A stretch of DNA of 41,370 nucleotides. Origin: Lachnospiraceae bacterium. Lineage in GTDB: Bacteria > Bacillota > Clostridia > Lachnospirales > Lachnospiraceae. Below, one piece after another: positions 19,305 to 41,370 of the stretch. Position numbers and translations under genes: made by a program. The notes below the pieces were generated by a model that was not told the DNA's origin, made no database searches, and saw only the letters and a program-made list of their open reading frames with translations. Position 1 is the stretch's first letter; each line of letters opens with the position of its first letter. The DNA is taken from positions 1 to 41,370 of the forward strand of contig JAFYYS010000016.1 in the NCBI GenBank assembly GCA_017546025.1, written 5' to 3'.

Positions 19305-19637
19305 ATGACGTTGTACCCCTTGAATGTATTACATATTGCGCCGTTTTATGCGCACAAAAATCAATCCTACCACATTTAGTATCCTGTAAACCGGTCGGAT
19401 ACGAGGTGTCGAAAAGCAGTTGCTTTTCCAACTAAATTATGGTATAATTGATGTGATTTGGGCATAGCTCAACACAATAGTGCACTCTAAATAGTACCAT
19501 AACTCCATCGGAATGTCAATCTTGCATTTTGAACAAATCATGCACGATTTCTTTCCGGTTTTTTTATGTTTAAAACGGAATCTTTTGTTTTCCGGGTTCC
19601 GTTTCATTGTTTCTGCCGGCCGTATGGCCCCAGAGAT
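19305..19637. other. rpoB upstream region before the repeat array
   Basis: AT-rich gap. It contains a hairpin-like GAAAAGCA/TGCTTTTC (19411-19428), a weak AAACGGAA/TTCCGTTT dyad (19573-19580/19597-19604) and a good-looking plus-strand promoter (19420-19448). A degenerate relative of the 53-bp unit core (TAGTACCAT) is at about 19493-19501. No credible gene was found. Confidence 0.5.
19420..19448 (+). promoter_or_regulatory. Possible orphan promoter facing the repeat array
   Basis: TTGCTT (19420-19425), 17-bp spacer, TATAAT (19443-19448) on the plus strand. No plus-strand gene follows; transcription would run into the 53-bp repeats and antisense to the zinc-ribbon gene, possibly stopping at the hairpin near 20071-20100. 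The -10 lies in a near-palindrome (AATTAT-GGT-ATAATT), so it may be fortuitous. Confidence 0.35.
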
Positions 19638-20036
19638 GGCTTTTGACTTGTTTCGTACCATGCCCGGCGGTCACTTGGAACTGAAAAGCTGTTTTTGACT
19701 TGTCTAGTACCATGCTATGGTGGCCACTTGGAACTGATGGGCGGTTTTTATCTTGTTTAGTACTATTCACTTCCCGGCACGTGGAACTGATGGGCGGTTT
19801 TTGACTTGTCCAGTACCACGCTATGGTGGCCACTTGGAACGGACGGGCGGTTTTTATCTTGTCCAGTACCATTCGCTTCCCAACACGTGGAACTGAAAAG
19901 ATGTTTTTGGCTTGTCCAGTACCACGCTATGATGGCCACTTGGAACGGGAGACTGTTTTTTATCTTGTCTAGTACCATTCGCTTCCCAACACGTGGAACT
20001 GAAAAGCTGTTCTTGACTTGTTTAGTACCATTTCCC
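19638..20036. repeat. Tandem array of eight 53-bp units in alternating A/B order
   Basis: Units start at 19638, 19691, 19744, 19797, 19850, 19903, 19956 and 20009 (the last is partial), an exact 53-nt period. All share a T-rich start followed by CTTG, then TAGTAC(C)A and a GTGGAAC/TTGGAAC block. Units at 19691, 19797 and 19903 carry CCA(T/C)GCTATG(G/A)TGGCCACTTGG; units at 19744, 19850 and 19956 carry TATCTTG and CACTTCCCGGCACGTGG or CGCTTCCCAACACGTGG. The higher-order repeat is thus 106 bp. The period is not a multiple of three, so the open frames across it are not maintained coding sequence. Type A units contain a short CCAT/ATGG or CCAC/GTGG dyad. It lies between rpoB and the zinc-ribbon gene. 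Confidence 0.93.
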
Positions 20037-34824: not shown

Positions 34825-37401
34825 TCACGGCGTGTAACAGAGAATATGCTCCGACTTCATGTCGTTGCTAAGCGTGAGCCCCGTCGCCGACACGTCATAT
34901 ACATACACGATCTCCTCGAGCCCTTCACCGTCCTTTACGATGTCGCGGAAAATGTTACAACACCCGCCGAGCATCTCCGGCCGGTAAGTGATTGTCTTCT
35001 CGTTCTCAAAGATAGCGTTATACAGAATTCCCGACTCGACAAGGTCCTGGAAGAAATGGCTTCCGTACGAAAGTTCGGGATTGTATCCGGCCTTCGAATT
35101 CGACACCTCGCAGATGGCCGCAAACTCGCTGATGTCGGCAAATGCGGTCGGCACGCCGAGTTCCGGTGAAGTCGTTCCAATCCGCCCGGGCACCATCAGA
35201 AGCAACTTCTTATCCTGCCCGCGCATCGTCCAGTTGACCGTTCCGATGGCACGTGCCACGCGGTATTTGTCGCGGTACGGCATGTTGTAGTATTTGACCG
35301 GGTCGACGTAGACAACCAGGTCGAGTTTATCCGTGCGGGACAGTCCCATCGCCGAGTTGCGGCACTCGAAAAGAATGTTGTCCGGCGTCACATTTTCCGG
35401 CATGGAGGTTTCCTCGGAATCGCGGAACACCTGTAACGGACGGCACTGCAGGATGTTGATGACGTAATCGCCGTTCTCCGAGAGATTGATCGTGAATTCG
35501 GTGTCGACCGGGTATTGGTACGCTTCCTGAATCGTGGCGAGAATGTCCTTCATCTGCTGCATGATGACCTCGCGGTTCACGATGCCCTGGCACGAGATGA
35601 ACTCAATGTCGCGGTTCTGCCCGCGCTCACGGAACGAGCGCTCCGCGTCGAAATCGTGCTCTAAAAGAAGCCTCTTCAGGAAGTAAGGCATGTACGGCTC
35701 GATCACATCGAGTGAAACCTGCTCGAGTTTTCCCTCGCTTCGGTTGATCAGCTCGAGTTTCCGCTGTGAAAACTGATGCTTCTCGGCGCTTGTACGCGCC
35801 ACGGCCGCCTTCGGCTGATCGAGGCTCACGAGGCGCGGATACGAGCCTTCCGTGCGGTCCACCGCCGATGTTCCGAGTCCCATAACCAGACGGAGCATTC
35901 CGGCTGACGAATCAAGACTCTCGAGAAACCGGTACGGGCTGTAGGAATAGCCGACCCCGGCGACACAGGGCATGTAGAAGTCGCCGTAGTAGGAGCCCGA
36001 CACGCGCTGCACGAGAAGCGCCATCTGCTCATCTCTTGCCTGCAGACCGCGGCGGCTCCGGTAATCGAGCGCCGACTTGCTCATCGTGCTCGCGTAAACG
36101 GTCCTCACCGCGTCCTCGAACTCCTGAAGGCGGTGCTCCATATCTCCCGCGTTCGGGCAGAAGACGGATTCGTATTTTCCTGCGAAGGCGTTACCGAAGC
36201 CGTCCTCGAGAATCGAACTCGAACGGACAATAATCGGGTCCTGCCCGTAGTATTCGAGAAGTTTGACGAACTCTTCCTCCATGTCGCGGGAGAACCGGCC
36301 CTCGCGCAGTCTTCTTGCGAGCTCATCCGCGAGCGTGAAGTACTCTTCCTTGCTCCTTTGGCGCACCCTGATGTCCCAGAATTGATTTTCCACGATAAAG
36401 GTATAAAACACATCGGATCCGATGAAAAATGAGTCGTGCGGCTCAAAATTCGCAAAAATGTCGGGGCGCTTGTTCTCGATGATCTTTCTTGCAAGAAGCA
36501 TGCCGGTCGCCTTGCCGCCGATCATGCCGGTGCCGAGCATGCGCTTCTTAACGTTCAGGTAATCCTCCGCCTTAAAGTTCTCCTTGATCATGATACGAAG
36601 CCTCTCGTCGCGCGTCATCATGATGTTGCACATGCGGCTACACTGCTCGGTCACGTCGAGGCCGTTTTCATGCATCGTCTCGGTCATCTCGAAGAACCGG
36701 TCCCAGCTGTCCTTGTTGCCGCGGTCCGCGCCCGCCGTATTGTGCTCAAGCAGCTGGTAGAAATGACTCGCGACAACGCCGTCGAGAATCGGCTGAAACA
36801 CGCCGCTCTCGGGCTCGTAACGGTGTGGCAGGAACATCGTCTCGGAATAGCGGTTCCAGACCTTGTCCGGACGCACGTAGATGTTCGTCTTGTCCGAATA
36901 CACGTCGAGGAACAGCTGCGTCGTGTCGCGGATCTTGGCGATCGCCTTGAACGAATGCTTGCCTCGGATCAACGGGAAAAATGCGACGGTATCGAGCTGA
37001 AACAGATACGGGCAGGTCACCTGGAAGAAGTTGCCCATCATCAGGTCGGTCGCCCACGCCGTCTGCAGCTCCGAAAGGCAGTCGAACACATAGAACGCGT
37101 CAACGCCTTCCTTCCGGATAATCTCGTGAATGTCGACCGTGAATGTCTCGAACCGATGCGACAGCTCCACGTTGACGATTTTCAGCCCCTCCCGCTCCGT
37201 AAAGAACGGTTCGTGCGAGGCAAACCGGATGTAGATTAGGTTTCGTCCGTCGCGGATTGCCTGCTCCATATACGGCTCCACGAACAGCCGGAAATCCTCC
37301 AGCCGGTCCACTCTCCAGACGACATTGTCCCCGAGGCGGATGTTGTCGAAGCACTCATCCATCTGCGGAATTCCCGATAATACTCTGTCAAATGCTGCCA
37401 T
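34825..37401 (-). CDS. Degenerate KaiC-like domain fused to PEP-synthase-type ATP-grasp domain
   Basis: 858 residues from ATG 37399-37401 (SD AAAGGGG). Residues 1 to about 240 resemble a RecA/KaiC fold (SGIPQMDECFDNIRLGDNVVWR; AFYVFDCLSELQTAWATDLM as the Walker B strand; IAKIRDTTQLFLDVY), but the P-loop glycines and lysine are missing. The second part is a PEP/pyruvate-binding ATP-grasp: GGKATGMLLARKII near 291, then VRSSSILEDGFGNAFAGKYE near 390, with the usual Arg, Glu and Gly-Lys positions. The His-containing phosphotransfer and TIM-barrel domains of PEP synthase are absent. It may act as a phosphotransferase subunit or a regulator. It is a single-gene unit. Confidence 0.75.
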   Translation of the reverse strand: MAAFDRVLSGIPQMDECFDNIRLGDNVVWRVDRLEDFRLFVEPYMEQAIRDGRNLIYIRFASHEPFFTEREGLKIVNVELSHRFETFTVDIHEIIRKEGVDAFYVFDCLSELQTAWATDLMMGNFFQVTCPYLFQLDTVAFFPLIRGKHSFKAIAKIRDTTQLFLDVYSDKTNIYVRPDKVWNRYSETMFLPHRYEPESGVFQPILDGVVASHFYQLLEHNTAGADRGNKDSWDRFFEMTETMHENGLDVTEQCSRMCNIMMTRDERLRIMIKENFKAEDYLNVKKRMLGTGMIGGKATGMLLARKIIENKRPDIFANFEPHDSFFIGSDVFYTFIVENQFWDIRVRQRSKEEYFTLADELARRLREGRFSRDMEEEFVKLLEYYGQDPIIVRSSSILEDGFGNAFAGKYESVFCPNAGDMEHRLQEFEDAVRTVYASTMSKSALDYRSRRGLQARDEQMALLVQRVSGSYYGDFYMPCVAGVGYSYSPYRFLESLDSSAGMLRLVMGLGTSAVDRTEGSYPRLVSLDQPKAAVARTSAEKHQFSQRKLELINRSEGKLEQVSLDVIEPYMPYFLKRLLLEHDFDAERSFRERGQNRDIEFISCQGIVNREVIMQQMKDILATIQEAYQYPVDTEFTINLSENGDYVINILQCRPLQVFRDSEETSMPENVTPDNILFECRNSAMGLSRTDKLDLVVYVDPVKYYNMPYRDKYRVARAIGTVNWTMRGQDKKLLLMVPGRIGTTSPELGVPTAFADISEFAAICEVSNSKAGYNPELSYGSHFFQDLVESGILYNAIFENEKTITYRPEMLGGCCNIFRDIVKDGEGLEEIVYVYDVSATGLTLSNDMKSEHILCYTP

Positions 37402-37540
37402 ATCAATACCCCTTTGAAAGCACATTTTCCGCCTCCCTTTTACGAGGTCGGCGGCTACCGAAACAAAAAGGGCAAAGAAGTCACAGTAAAGACTCCTTTG
37501 CCCTTAATGGCAGTATAGCATGTTTTACAGCGATTGTATA
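37402..37540. other. Gap between the surface protein and the ATP-grasp gene
   Basis: Apart from the terminator at 37468-37505, this region has the SD of the ATP-grasp gene and one GGAAAATGTGC copy (37420-37430, minus strand). No clean promoter hexamers were found. Confidence 0.4.
37468..37505 (-). terminator. Terminator of the surface protein gene
   Basis: AAGGGCAAAG (37468-37477) pairs with CTTTGCCCTT (37496-37505), extended by AGTC/GACT; the minus strand continues with TTTTTGTTT. Confidence 0.88.
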
Positions 37541-40500
37541 CTACTTCTTTCCGCGCCCTGCGTTGCTTATGTGAAGCCCCCATACGCGAAGCGCAACCAC
37601 GGCTCCGAGGCAAACAACCAGAAGCACTATCAGATAGTTGTAAGGCAGCGTATCCGTAGTCTTAGGGGAATCGTTCGGCACCGGCGTCAGTTCCGGAGTG
37701 ACTTCAGGAGTAGTCTCCGGAGTGACTTCAGGAGTAGTCTCCGGAGTGACTTCGGGCGTTACCTCCGTCTTCGGCGCAGTATAAGTGTTACCGAATGTCG
37801 TCCGGCTCTGCGTTCCTCCCTTGACGGTACCCTTTGTGCCTTCCGCGGTGGACTGCGCAAAACCTTCCGGCATGCTGCCGCTCTCCTGCGAAACTTCAAA
37901 TGTCGCTCCGTGAGGAAGCCCGGACACAATTAAAGTCTTGCCGCCCGGTACTTGAAGCGTGGCTCGTCCTTCGCTGTCTGTGGTCAGCACATTGCCGCTG
38001 CCTGCCGCACGAAGCGCACGTCTCTTTGTCTCCTCCGTAACGATAAACGTCGCATTTGCCATCGGCTTCCCGTCGCGGTCCTTGATCACGATTTCCACCG
38101 GGAAAACCGGCTGATTTCCCTCCGGAACCGGTCCGTCCATGGTGATTTCGACTGCGAGCGAACCGTCCTTATAACCGTTTCGGAACTCCGTATCACCGAT
38201 GGTCTTGATGTCCGGGGTAAAGAGACCGTCTTCATTTTCCGTGAATGTGACGACGTACAGCGCTTCATGACTGTCATATTCGATGGTATCGTCCCCGTCG
38301 GACAACTCGCGAACCACAAAGTAGTACGGCTCTGTGACGGTCGGATCCAGCCACATAGTGGAAAATGTAATCGTTCCGTCCGGCTTATTCTCTACCGTCT
38401 CAATCAGTTTCGTCGTATATCCGTTCTCATTGCTCTCATACAGACCGAACGTATACTTCTCCGTTGCCGGCTTGCCTTCAAACGTCTTCGTTGCGGTAAT
38501 CGACACTTCCGGCTTCAGGTAATTGACCAGCTGCACCGGCTCCGCTTCGCCGTCGACCACCAGTTCTCCGTCCACCTTTCCGGTTCCTCCGCAGACGCTG
38601 CAGGGATCCTCGGTACGCGCCGGGTAAATCGCGGCGATCCGATGAAGGTAATTGTACAGGGCGTTTGGATTCTCCTGGATGGTTGCCCATTCCTCCTCCG
38701 TGAAAACATATCCGGCATACACGCCGGGGGTTATGCAGGACGGGCATTGATCCTCGGGCACATACGTCATCTCGCACAATTCGGAAAGCGTGAAACCTGG
38801 CAAGACCGGCCCGATGACCATGCCGTCCCTGTGGATCGCCGGAGCGCCCAGGATCCCGATGCAGTCCGGGCAGATCGCCCCGGTCTGGTTGGGATGCTCA
38901 CACGGGTTGAATGTAAAGCCGGCTCCTTTGCAGGTGCCGCACGGATCTCCCGTGCCGGCCGGGTCGAGCCCGGTTCCGTGGCAGTCCGGGCAGGATTCCA
39001 TGATCTCCCCGTCCAGGCAGTCGCTCAGCATGTAGATCTCGGTGACCTTTCCCATCGAGGCATCTATCGTGACCGCCGCGATCCCACCCGTGCCGCTTCC
39101 GCCGCAGGCCATGCAGTCTTCTTCCCCGGGTTTCAGCGTCTGCCCGGGCATCGCCACCAGCAGTTCGCCGCTCTCCGTCAGCGCGATCTGAACCTTCGCC
39201 TCAACCGGTTTGGTCATATACATCACCGTCGGATCCGTTCCCTGCACCTCGCTGATCAGGAACGTGATTTCCCCGATACCGGTCTGCGGCGAGATGGTTT
39301 CCAAATCTCTTTCCGTCAGAATGATATCCGGCGAGAAGGTGATATTGCCGTCAGCATCATTTTTCCCGATTGCTAAAGGCTCCGAGTCCGGGGCAGCATC
39401 CGCACGCCGGACTTCAAAAGAGAATTCCTCCGGCTGCAACGACCGCCCGACCAGTTCCTTGTGAGCAGTCAGGGTGATTTTTTTCTCAAAGCCGTACACA
39501 TTTGTGAAAACCAGATCTCCCGTCTCCGTAGACGCCATGACGTTCAGCGTGCCGTCCTTGTTGTCCGTGAAGGTAAGGGTAACCTGCTTTATCTGCGTGT
39601 CGTACGTTACATTTTTGTACGTCACGGTGCCGTCCGCCGCGGTCTGCGCGCCGTTCGGAATCACCTCGCGCACCAGGTAGGTAAGCGTCTTGGTCCCGCC
39701 ATATTCGGTGATCTCAACAGTATTGTAGCCGTCATAACTGCCGTTGATGGTGAATCTGGCCAAACCGACCGTTTCGCCGTTTTCGGTCACGGTTCCGCGG
39801 CTCTGTCCCGTCGTCGCCGTGCCGACTACATCCTTGTACGAGTAATTAGCGTAACCGTAGTCGTTGTACTGGTTGTCGTCGACCATTTCAAACCGGAACT
39901 CCCCAGCCTGCTGCTCGCGGCCCCGCAGTTTCTTCGTTCCGGTGACCGTGATCCCGGACTTTGCCGAATAGTCGTTCCGGAACGCGATCTTCTCGGTTTT
40001 CCCTACCCGGATTGTTTTTTCCACGGGCACCCGCCACGGCGAGTAGATGCTCCAACCCTTGGGAACCTGCTCATTCACAGAGCATACGGTCCCGGCCGGC
40101 AATCCGATGATTTGGAAGCACTGATTCTCCTTCAACGTAATCGTGCCGCCAGCCCGAATGGTTCCCCGGCTGACTACAGCCGCTTCCGTCGGAAGCTCTG
40201 TGCTGTCATAGTTCACGGGCGACTTGTCGAAAATGACATACTCGTATTCCCCGCTCAGGTCCGCGCCGTCGTATTCCATCTCCACGGTGAAGGGGAAGGA
40301 CGGAAGGACGGTGTTGTTGCCATCCTTCGGCTTGCTGCGGTCCTCCACATGCGCCGAAACCATAAGATAACCGAAATCCGGCTTTTTGAAGTTGCGGAAG
40401 GTGTGGATGTCGTTCTTGTCGTACTCCGCCACTTCGACGCCCAGCGGGACTTCGTTGGTCTGCGCAAACCAGCCGTCCGGCACGTTACTTTCTCCGGTCA

Positions 40501-41370
40501 CGGCGTAGATATACTCAAATCCGCCCGGTTCATAGCGGTCCATAACAAAGGTATAGGTCCAGTCCTCGTTCTTGGTGTAGGTATGAGGGAAGTCGGTCTT
40601 CTTTCCGTCGCTTCCGATCCGGGTCAGCACGATGATGGGCTGGGCGCCGTCCGGCGCTTCCGCGGCCGTTCCGTCCGGGTTCAGCCACAACTTGTCGATT
40701 TTGATGCTGACCTGTTCCTTCGTATGTTTGTTGACGATCTCGTAGGAGCGGTTATCTTCCTTGTAAACCGACGTGGTATAGCCCGGCACCGGATCTTCCG
40801 TGACAGTATATGTATACCGGTTTCCGTTGCTGTCTGTCTCCGGAGCATTTTGGAAAATGCCCTGCCAATTATCATCAGCCTTAAGGATCAGAGTATCCGT
40901 GATTACCGGTGAATTTTCCACTCCCGTTTCGCCCTTAAGGCGCACCGTCACCTGGTCCGGCCGCAGCCCGTCGTAGTTGTCAACATAACCTACGCCGCTC
41001 GCATAACCCTTGTCGTCCCAGGTCTTACGGACCATGATCGACTCGGGCACGATGCCGACACGGGTATACTCAAAATCCAGCACCGACCGGTCTCTGGCAT
41101 ATCCGTGGGACGCCTGCGTCGTGGGCGTGGAGAAGCGGAGGTACACCGCCGCCGCCTTGTTGTACGCGTACATGTTGTTGGCCGAATCCGCCGACGCAAT
41201 CCAGTCGATATCGTCCGGCGACGCGGCGTTGTCCGTTTTATGGGCATACGTGCCCTTCGCGTTCCATTTGTTGTCGTCGCCGCCGTCGGTCGGCGCCTTC
41301 ATGTTCAGGTAGACGGAAACCTTGTCCCCCGGCGACAGCAGGCACATCGTGGCGGGATTCGTTCCCCGCT
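37541..41370 (-). CDS. Large Cna-B/FctA-type surface protein with DnaJ-like cysteine module (5' end outside window)
   Basis: At least 1275 residues; the reading frame is open to the right edge, so the N-terminus is missing. It is a string of beta-sandwich repeats of the isopeptide-forming Cna-B/Spy0128 (FctA) type: about 41010-40720 (VRKTWDDKGYASGVGYVDNY), 40700-40400, 40360-39970, 39965-39490 (VTGTKKLRGREQQAGEFRFE), 39485-38530 (LTAHKELVGRSLQPEEFSFE), 38520-38170 and 38165-37790. The fifth has an insertion (38591-39115) with six CxxC pairs, four exactly CxxCxGxG. A Thr/Pro stalk (TPEVTPETTPE, 24-bp DNA repeats), an SPKTTD sequence, a membrane helix (YLIVLLVVCLGAVVALRVWG) and a basic tail end the protein. 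The anchor is SPKTxD-like instead of LPXTG. Role probably adhesion or pilus scaffold. Confidence 0.88.
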   Translation of the reverse strand, partial: RGTNPATMCLLSPGDKVSVYLNMKAPTDGGDDNKWNAKGTYAHKTDNAASPDDIDWIASADSANNMYAYNKAAAVYLRFSTPTTQASHGYARDRSVLDFEYTRVGIVPESIMVRKTWDDKGYASGVGYVDNYDGLRPDQVTVRLKGETGVENSPVITDTLILKADDNWQGIFQNAPETDSNGNRYTYTVTEDPVPGYTTSVYKEDNRSYEIVNKHTKEQVSIKIDKLWLNPDGTAAEAPDGAQPIIVLTRIGSDGKKTDFPHTYTKNEDWTYTFVMDRYEPGGFEYIYAVTGESNVPDGWFAQTNEVPLGVEVAEYDKNDIHTFRNFKKPDFGYLMVSAHVEDRSKPKDGNNTVLPSFPFTVEMEYDGADLSGEYEYVIFDKSPVNYDSTELPTEAAVVSRGTIRAGGTITLKENQCFQIIGLPAGTVCSVNEQVPKGWSIYSPWRVPVEKTIRVGKTEKIAFRNDYSAKSGITVTGTKKLRGREQQAGEFRFEMVDDNQYNDYGYANYSYKDVVGTATTGQSRGTVTENGETVGLARFTINGSYDGYNTVEITEYGGTKTLTYLVREVIPNGAQTAADGTVTYKNVTYDTQIKQVTLTFTDNKDGTLNVMASTETGDLVFTNVYGFEKKITLTAHKELVGRSLQPEEFSFEVRRADAAPDSEPLAIGKNDADGNITFSPDIILTERDLETISPQTGIGEITFLISEVQGTDPTVMYMTKPVEAKVQIALTESGELLVAMPGQTLKPGEEDCMACGGSGTGGIAAVTIDASMGKVTEIYMLSDCLDGEIMESCPDCHGTGLDPAGTGDPCGTCKGAGFTFNPCEHPNQTGAICPDCIGILGAPAIHRDGMVIGPVLPGFTLSELCEMTYVPEDQCPSCITPGVYAGYVFTEEEWATIQENPNALYNYLHRIAAIYPARTEDPCSVCGGTGKVDGELVVDGEAEPVQLVNYLKPEVSITATKTFEGKPATEKYTFGLYESNENGYTTKLIETVENKPDGTITFSTMWLDPTVTEPYYFVVRELSDGDDTIEYDSHEALYVVTFTENEDGLFTPDIKTIGDTEFRNGYKDGSLAVEITMDGPVPEGNQPVFPVEIVIKDRDGKPMANATFIVTEETKRRALRAAGSGNVLTTDSEGRATLQVPGGKTLIVSGLPHGATFEVSQESGSMPEGFAQSTAEGTKGTVKGGTQSRTTFGNTYTAPKTEVTPEVTPETTPEVTPETTPEVTPELTPVPNDSPKTTDTLPYNYLIVLLVVCLGAVVALRVWGLHISNAGRGKK
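37697..37757. repeat. 24-bp coding repeats of the Thr/Pro stalk
   Basis: Units at 37697-37720 and 37721-37744 are identical (AGTGACTTCAGGAGTAGTCT then CCGG) and a third is partial. They encode PETTPEVT on the minus strand, an extended wall-spanning stalk likely to vary in copy number. Confidence 0.9.
38591..39115 (-). other. DnaJ-type cysteine-rich module inserted in an FctA domain
   Basis: On the protein in order: CMACGGSG, CPDCHGTG, CGTCKGAG, CPDCIGIL, CPSCITPG and CSVCGGTG. Four are exact CxxCxGxG, the zinc-centre repeat of DnaJ. It splits the last strands of the surrounding pilin-type domain (VQIALTESGELLVAMPGQ before, PVQLVNYLKPEVSITATK after). Flanking NPCEHPNQTG also holds Cys and His. 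Confidence 0.88.

Follow-up and report, generated by a model that had tools for sequence, protein, structure and literature searches.

We report a cysteine-rich module of 183 residues inserted into an FctA pilin-type domain of a large surface protein from a rumen-type gut bacterium. On balance, we favor an interpretation in which a zinc-binding cysteine-cluster head, probably one that engages a partner, arose by expansion of an FctA hairpin in this adhesin-like protein, which we take to be exported and probably wall-anchored. The module (38579..39127) lies in the window, i.e., the whole stretch of DNA analyzed, which constitutes contig C6 (41,370 bp) of a 2.2-Mb genome (G000). Unless noted otherwise, window features are on the minus strand and residue numbers refer to the 1275-residue frame of ORF 37541-41368.

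This frame (37541..41368) is open at the contig end and encodes the C-terminal 1275 residues of the surface protein. The N-terminal half is found on a second contig of the same genome (G000:C21:1-3324, minus strand), opens with what reads by eye as a signal-peptide-like start, and ends in RGTNPATM, the same residues with which the window frame begins. Scanning the frame against Pfam returned Cna_B, DUF7601 and FctA domains: a Cna_B domain at residues 112-214 (PF05738, 40727..41035; the better-matching of two stretches), DUF7601 at residues 337-467 (PF24547, 39968..40360), and FctA-1 (39494..39943), FctA-2 (residues 629-952, 38513..39484) and FctA-3 (38168..38500), which account for all three PF12892 matches in the genome and each score above the cut-off. 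Toward the C-terminus follow Thr/Pro/Glu-rich stalk repeats (residues 1197-1233, 37670..37780) and an SPKTTD element followed by hydrophobic residues and a basic tail (37544..37669), which by eye resembles a sorting signal, differing from the canonical LPxTG; two sortase genes are present elsewhere in the genome. The protein is thus probably exported, wall-anchored, adhesin-like and very large, and the original prediction of an extracellular surface protein is supported, with the signal-like start and sorting-like tail both read by eye. Elsewhere in the window, a frame at 19573-19926 (minus strand) contains a degenerate repeated peptide (VLDKIKTARPFQV / TKQDKNRPSVPSG / VLDKSKTAFQFQV) and resembles an intergenic repeat read as protein.

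Two of the three FctA domains are uninterrupted and match PF12892 over nearly its full length (positions 2-119/120 for FctA-1 and 1-120/120 for FctA-3). FctA-2 matches just positions 2-102/120 (39158-39469), and this part, which precedes the insertion, scores 24.6 bits versus a cut-off of 22.1 bits. Because the FctA-2 match ends at 102/120 and those of FctA-1 and FctA-3 reach the end, the insertion is placed before the last strand. The module is flanked by a strand ending in AMPGQT and by the strand VQLVNYLK, which would be the last strand of FctA-2, and the proposal that the insertion sits within an FctA-type domain is supported. In a published FctA structure, the isopeptide triad is Lys52/Glu139/Asn213 (PMC12617251). 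Alignment with FctA-1 and FctA-3 identified K637 (39458..39460) and E707 (39248..39250) as the presumed isopeptide lysine and catalytic glutamate of FctA-2, both located before the module. The presumed isopeptide asparagine, N949 (38522..38524), lies past the module and was assigned by eye (LVNYLK versus FTNVY) because MAFFT placed the last strand of FctA-2 differently, leaving N949 outside the Asn column. With K637 and E707 on one side and N949, as assigned by eye, on the other, FctA-2 would need the module to fold back on itself in order to close.

The module contains six CxxC motifs at residues 752-930, four of which are exact matches to CxxCxGxG. Motif 1 (CMACGGSG, residues 752-759, 39092..39115) and motif 6 (CSVCGGTG, residues 923-930, 38579..38602) form the outer pair, and between them are motif 2 (CPDCHGTG, residues 793-800, 38969..38992), motif 3 (CGTCKGAG, residues 810-817, 38918..38941), motif 4 (CPDC, residues 833-836, 38861..38872) and motif 5 (CPSC, residues 875-878, 38735..38746). 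All six had been called previously, and the position and strand given for each were confirmed. In addition, there are single cysteines at positions 784, 823 and 865, the second of which belongs to a CEHP element (C823 and H825, 38891..38902) that may supply extra ligands. In total, 15 of the 19 cysteines of the frame fall inside the module. Against the four exact motifs observed, shuffled sequences averaged 0.0019 when the whole frame was permuted and 0.021 when the module was; among 20,000 module shuffles, none contained four exact CxxCxGxG motifs and one contained six CxxC. Across the whole genome, on both strands, the CxxCxGxG codon pattern gave 50 DNA matches and its reversal 33. A single motif is thus close to background level, and it is the clustering that is informative.

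Long modules were found six times in 5 of 22 genomes of the genus (G000, G006, G008, G013, and two copies, a and b, in G009), a lower bound given that several of these genomes are incomplete and that each of the six copies (L022-L026 and the window end) is cut at a contig end. The remaining module-profile matches at E ≤ 0.01 amounted to one frame of 311-385 residues in each of the 22 genomes, 21 of which carry HPD and at least four CxxCxGxG motifs and are therefore DnaJ; the 311-residue frame of G001 has four motifs in DnaJ spacing without HPD. A seventh, short copy occurs in a paralogous domain of G008, with the same flanks and just CPLCGGKG-E-CSACGGTG, that is, motifs 1 and 6 in tandem.

The cysteines of motifs 1, 2, 3 and 6 are invariant in 6/6 long copies, and all six motifs are present in four of them (window, G009a, G008 and G013). 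The G006 copy retains motifs 1, 2, 3 and 6, whereas motifs 4 and 5 are missing from it jointly with the CxH element; motif 4 and CxH are each found in the other 5/6 copies. In G009b, motif 5 reads CPSRITC, with one cysteine displaced and everything else of the six-motif set kept. Spacing is constant between motifs 2 and 3 (17) and between motifs 3 and 4 (23) in every copy having those motifs, and varies between motifs 1 and 2 (41-42), 4 and 5 (42-49), and 5 and 6 (47-48). The pattern of motif gain and loss, including the short copy, supports treating motifs 1 and 6 as one unit and motifs 4 and 5 as mutually dependent, and such pairwise gain and loss favors metal sites as its explanation. It fits a nested pairing (1+6, 2+3, 4+5) and equally an arrangement of 1+6 around a DnaJ-like set (2+5, 3+4), which would collapse to 2+3 in G006. 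The three single cysteines and the displaced cysteine of G009b misfit a simple four-ligand scheme. An internal duplication of the motif 1-2 unit as the motif 4-5 unit was considered and rejected, as the profile match covered 6 columns at a probability of 6.9%; the two remaining pairs of units reached 90% and 77%, aligned over one CxxC motif alone, which for the latter pair is the shared motif 5 itself.

Several observations concern the surroundings of these copies. Both G009 copies start at the same residue (LETISPQTG), and since the upstream halves of paralogous copies are near-identical, the assembly probably breaks there, which hints at inter-copy recombination. In G006, two overlapping frames (L095, G006:C25, 2-856 and 706-2736) share the N-terminal half of the protein between them, through either gene breakage or misassembly. 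Downstream of the module gene, window 34825-37425 (minus strand) encodes 866 residues with PEP synthase-type family matches far below the cut-offs; a similar frame also follows both G009 copies, whereas the stretches listed around the copies of G006, G008 and G013 showed none.

Conservation within the module is concentrated on the cysteines. Among the window, G008 and G013 sequences, 12/15 cysteines versus 31/168 other residues are invariant (p = 2e-6), and with G006 added the figures are 8/15 versus 21/168 (p = 5e-4); the comparison thus covers four diverged sequences from a single genus. Retention of the cysteines among homologues, which the original prediction had named as a test, is thus observed. 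Comparing the window with G009b, the one pair in which module and flank were set side by side, we determined a dN/dS of 0.57 (dS 0.26) for the module and 0.22 (dS 0.35) for the downstream flank; faster evolution of the module would be as expected of an exposed head. Upstream of the module, the same two sequences differ at just 2 positions over 58 codons, a near-identity suggestive of exchange between copies.

Module dN/dS values of 0.44-0.60 across six pairs could also be read as those of a cysteine-rich decoration, i.e., a disordered or disulfide-stabilized insert without metal that a rapidly evolving surface protein has kept through drift. The structure predictions would be compatible with such an insert: AlphaFold models were of low confidence both for FctA-2 with the module (pLDDT 43.8) and for the module alone (pLDDT 51.3, pTM 0.52), each with three close rows in the alignment, and a Foldseek search with the better, module-alone model returned 42 matches at E ≤ 10, of which none reached E ≤ 0.001. 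Under drift, however, the cysteines would not be expected to be more conserved than the remaining residues, nor the motifs to be present or absent in pairs, and we regard a metal-free decoration as very unlikely.

Next, we evaluated the relation of the module to DnaJ, whose CxxCxGxG motifs it shares. Spacings of 17 and 23 between motifs 2, 3 and 4 approximate those of DnaJ repeats 1 to 3 in the genus (repeat spacing 17-26-14), the first two of which are 17 and 26 in 22/22 rows; these rows represent 21 genes (one gene appears twice, and there are three identical row pairs in all) and leave out the G001 match without HPD. PF00684 was the top Pfam match in 4/4 modules scanned (the long copies of the window, G006, G008 and G013), DnaJ chains ranked first and second in a PDB profile search (E 0.019 and 0.067), and hhalign of the module against the 22 DnaJ rows gave a score of 47.3 and a probability of 94.6%. 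Nevertheless, the PF00684 scores of 19.0, 17.3, 19.1 and 26.2 bits all remained below the cut-off of 32.7. The genome's own UvrA (named by eye) scored 18.9 bits with the same profile, compared with 19.5 bits for the module, which marks such scores as background. When the module was shuffled keeping its Cys/Gly skeleton and gapped columns, 57/300 shuffles reached the hhalign score of the real module; a weaker control, in which Cys/Gly were kept and the gapped columns moved, partly destroying the spacing, yielded 0/20. We conclude that, at the level of sequence, the module genuinely resembles DnaJ in its motifs and in part of their spacing, and we do not claim homology because the similarity is no greater than the Cys/Gly skeleton and spacing provide. 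Membership of PF00684, the family against which the original prediction had suggested a search, is accordingly not shown, with scores of 17.3-26.2 bits and close to a fifth of skeleton-preserving shuffles performing as well.

These comparisons bear directly on a second interpretation, in which the pilin has acquired a true DnaJ-type central domain that acts at the cell surface as a holdase or peptide-binding domain for unfolded or extended chains. The sub-threshold PF00684 ranking, the PDB profile search and the 17/23 spacing are what this interpretation would predict, whereas the shuffles, a next motif that lies at least 42 residues away (42 in the window) and lacks GxG, and the presence of neither a J domain nor a C-terminal DnaJ domain in the 1275-residue frame are not. 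For the J domain, this result applies to the C-terminal part of the protein, which the Pfam scan covered. The module further departs from DnaJ in having six CxxC motifs and long spacers, and in belonging to an exported-type protein, inserted in a pilin domain. We therefore consider a transplanted DnaJ domain unlikely.

Returning to the expanded FctA hairpin, the preferred reading, we envisage the loop before the last FctA-2 strand as having grown into a module that most likely binds two or three zinc ions, each held by a pair of CxxC(xGxG) knuckles. Motifs 1 and 6, as the outer knuckles, would form one site at the neck, adjoining the host domain, and the inner motifs would provide one or two more, either nested (2+3, 4+5) or DnaJ-like (2+5, 3+4). 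In DnaJ, the Zn1 ligands are C147, C150, C200 and C203 (PMC8262869), which we take to be repeats 1 and 4. Zinc would stand in for a hydrophobic core, holding short strand and helix segments as a rigid head on a mechanically stable, isopeptide-type stalk, and this head would probably bind a partner protein or surface.

The same thiols could alternatively serve as a redox- or metal-responsive lock, switching between metal-bound or reduced and disulfide states and thereby reshaping the stalk or head with the supply of oxygen or metal. Such a role is suggested by the presence of CxxC pairs in a protein of exported type whose host presumably lives anaerobically (a relative in the genus is a rumen Lachnospiraceae MAG, from which we infer anaerobic life), and by the oxidoreductase activity of DnaJ, which is described as mapping to its zinc-2 site (PMC8262869). 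On the other hand, the xGxG glycines are kept in the outer motifs, and a redox CxxC would presumably not need them; moreover, the related ZnJ2 is described as binding zinc without reductase activity (PMC5818400). A lock of this kind appears improbable to us. A bolder form of the adhesin-head proposal is similarly doubtful: an extracellular, wall-anchored, DnaJ-type three-zinc module that would have gained its second and third knuckle pairs stepwise inside the pilin domain. Such a head would bind proteins of feed, host or microbial origin as unfolded or extended chains, or else act as a sensor of metal and redox state at the surface.

Beyond the genus, searches of two overlapping samples, with 397 genomes from the family and 392 from the order (E ≤ 1e-6, at most 8 candidates scored per genome), returned only DnaJ besides the module itself; the family sample contained five DnaJ frames of 380-410 residues, one of which recurs in the order sample. 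A 75-residue query around the short copy retrieved its own protein alone from the 397 family genomes at E ≤ 0.001. Among named genome contigs, a single Lachnospiraceae MAG, sampled from water-buffalo rumen, accounted for both matching records and is probably the same genome as G009. The plasmids, phages and viral contigs searched gave no match to the module, and a mobile origin was rejected on this basis. In the open-access literature searched, we did not find CXXCXGXG together with pilin or with cell wall and sortase, isopeptide, zinc-binding, sortase and zinc ribbon in one paper, or FctA and isopeptide in Lachnospiraceae.

Within this single genus, the module occurs in forms with one, two or three apparent sites, a small natural series in which the addition of metal sites to surface proteins can be tested. 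Should the module bind protein, it would represent a new type of head on surface stalks of Gram-positive rumen bacteria. The genus also encodes another kind of exported-type CxxCxGxG protein: L031:5830-6768 (G000:C8:41829-42767, plus strand) encodes a lipoprotein-like protein of 312 residues with an RsgI_M domain (PF23750, E 7e-11) and a tail of five exact CxxCxGxG motifs, and a similar protein, its tail longer, is encoded in G018 (L067).

CxxCxGxG-type zinc cysteine clusters are known mostly from intracellular chaperones and regulators. BSD2/ZnJ2 and PSA2/EDA3, plastid DnaJ-like zinc proteins that lack a J domain, are small proteins whose zinc domain is not known to be inserted in another domain, and they differ from the module in being plant or algal and in having four motifs. 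Plastid ZnJ2 resembles the module in that its CxxCxGxG domain is found apart from a J domain (PMC5818400), and PSA2 is reported to reside in the thylakoid lumen (PMC7662858). The short G008 copy is reminiscent of anti-TRAP (RtpA, PF15777), in which two CXXCXGXG motifs bind zinc (PMC2896485); unlike the module protein, anti-TRAP is described as a trp operon regulator that assembles into trimers and dodecamers (PMC2896485). Membership of that family was rejected, as scores were below the cut-offs in both NCBIfam (11.1 bits for the window frame versus 65) and Pfam (at best 19.6 bits, in the G006 module, versus 32). On the side of the host domain, CnaA/CnaB folds are described as tolerating inserted domains, usually isopeptide or adhesion domains, and the pilins RrgA and Spy0125 carry a large domain inserted between isopeptide-forming residues (PMC12617251), as FctA-2 would with its presumed triad. 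The FctA-2 insert differs in being a cysteine-cluster module. Each half of the protein is of a known type, and their combination, a CxxCxGxG module within a pilin domain, looks new.
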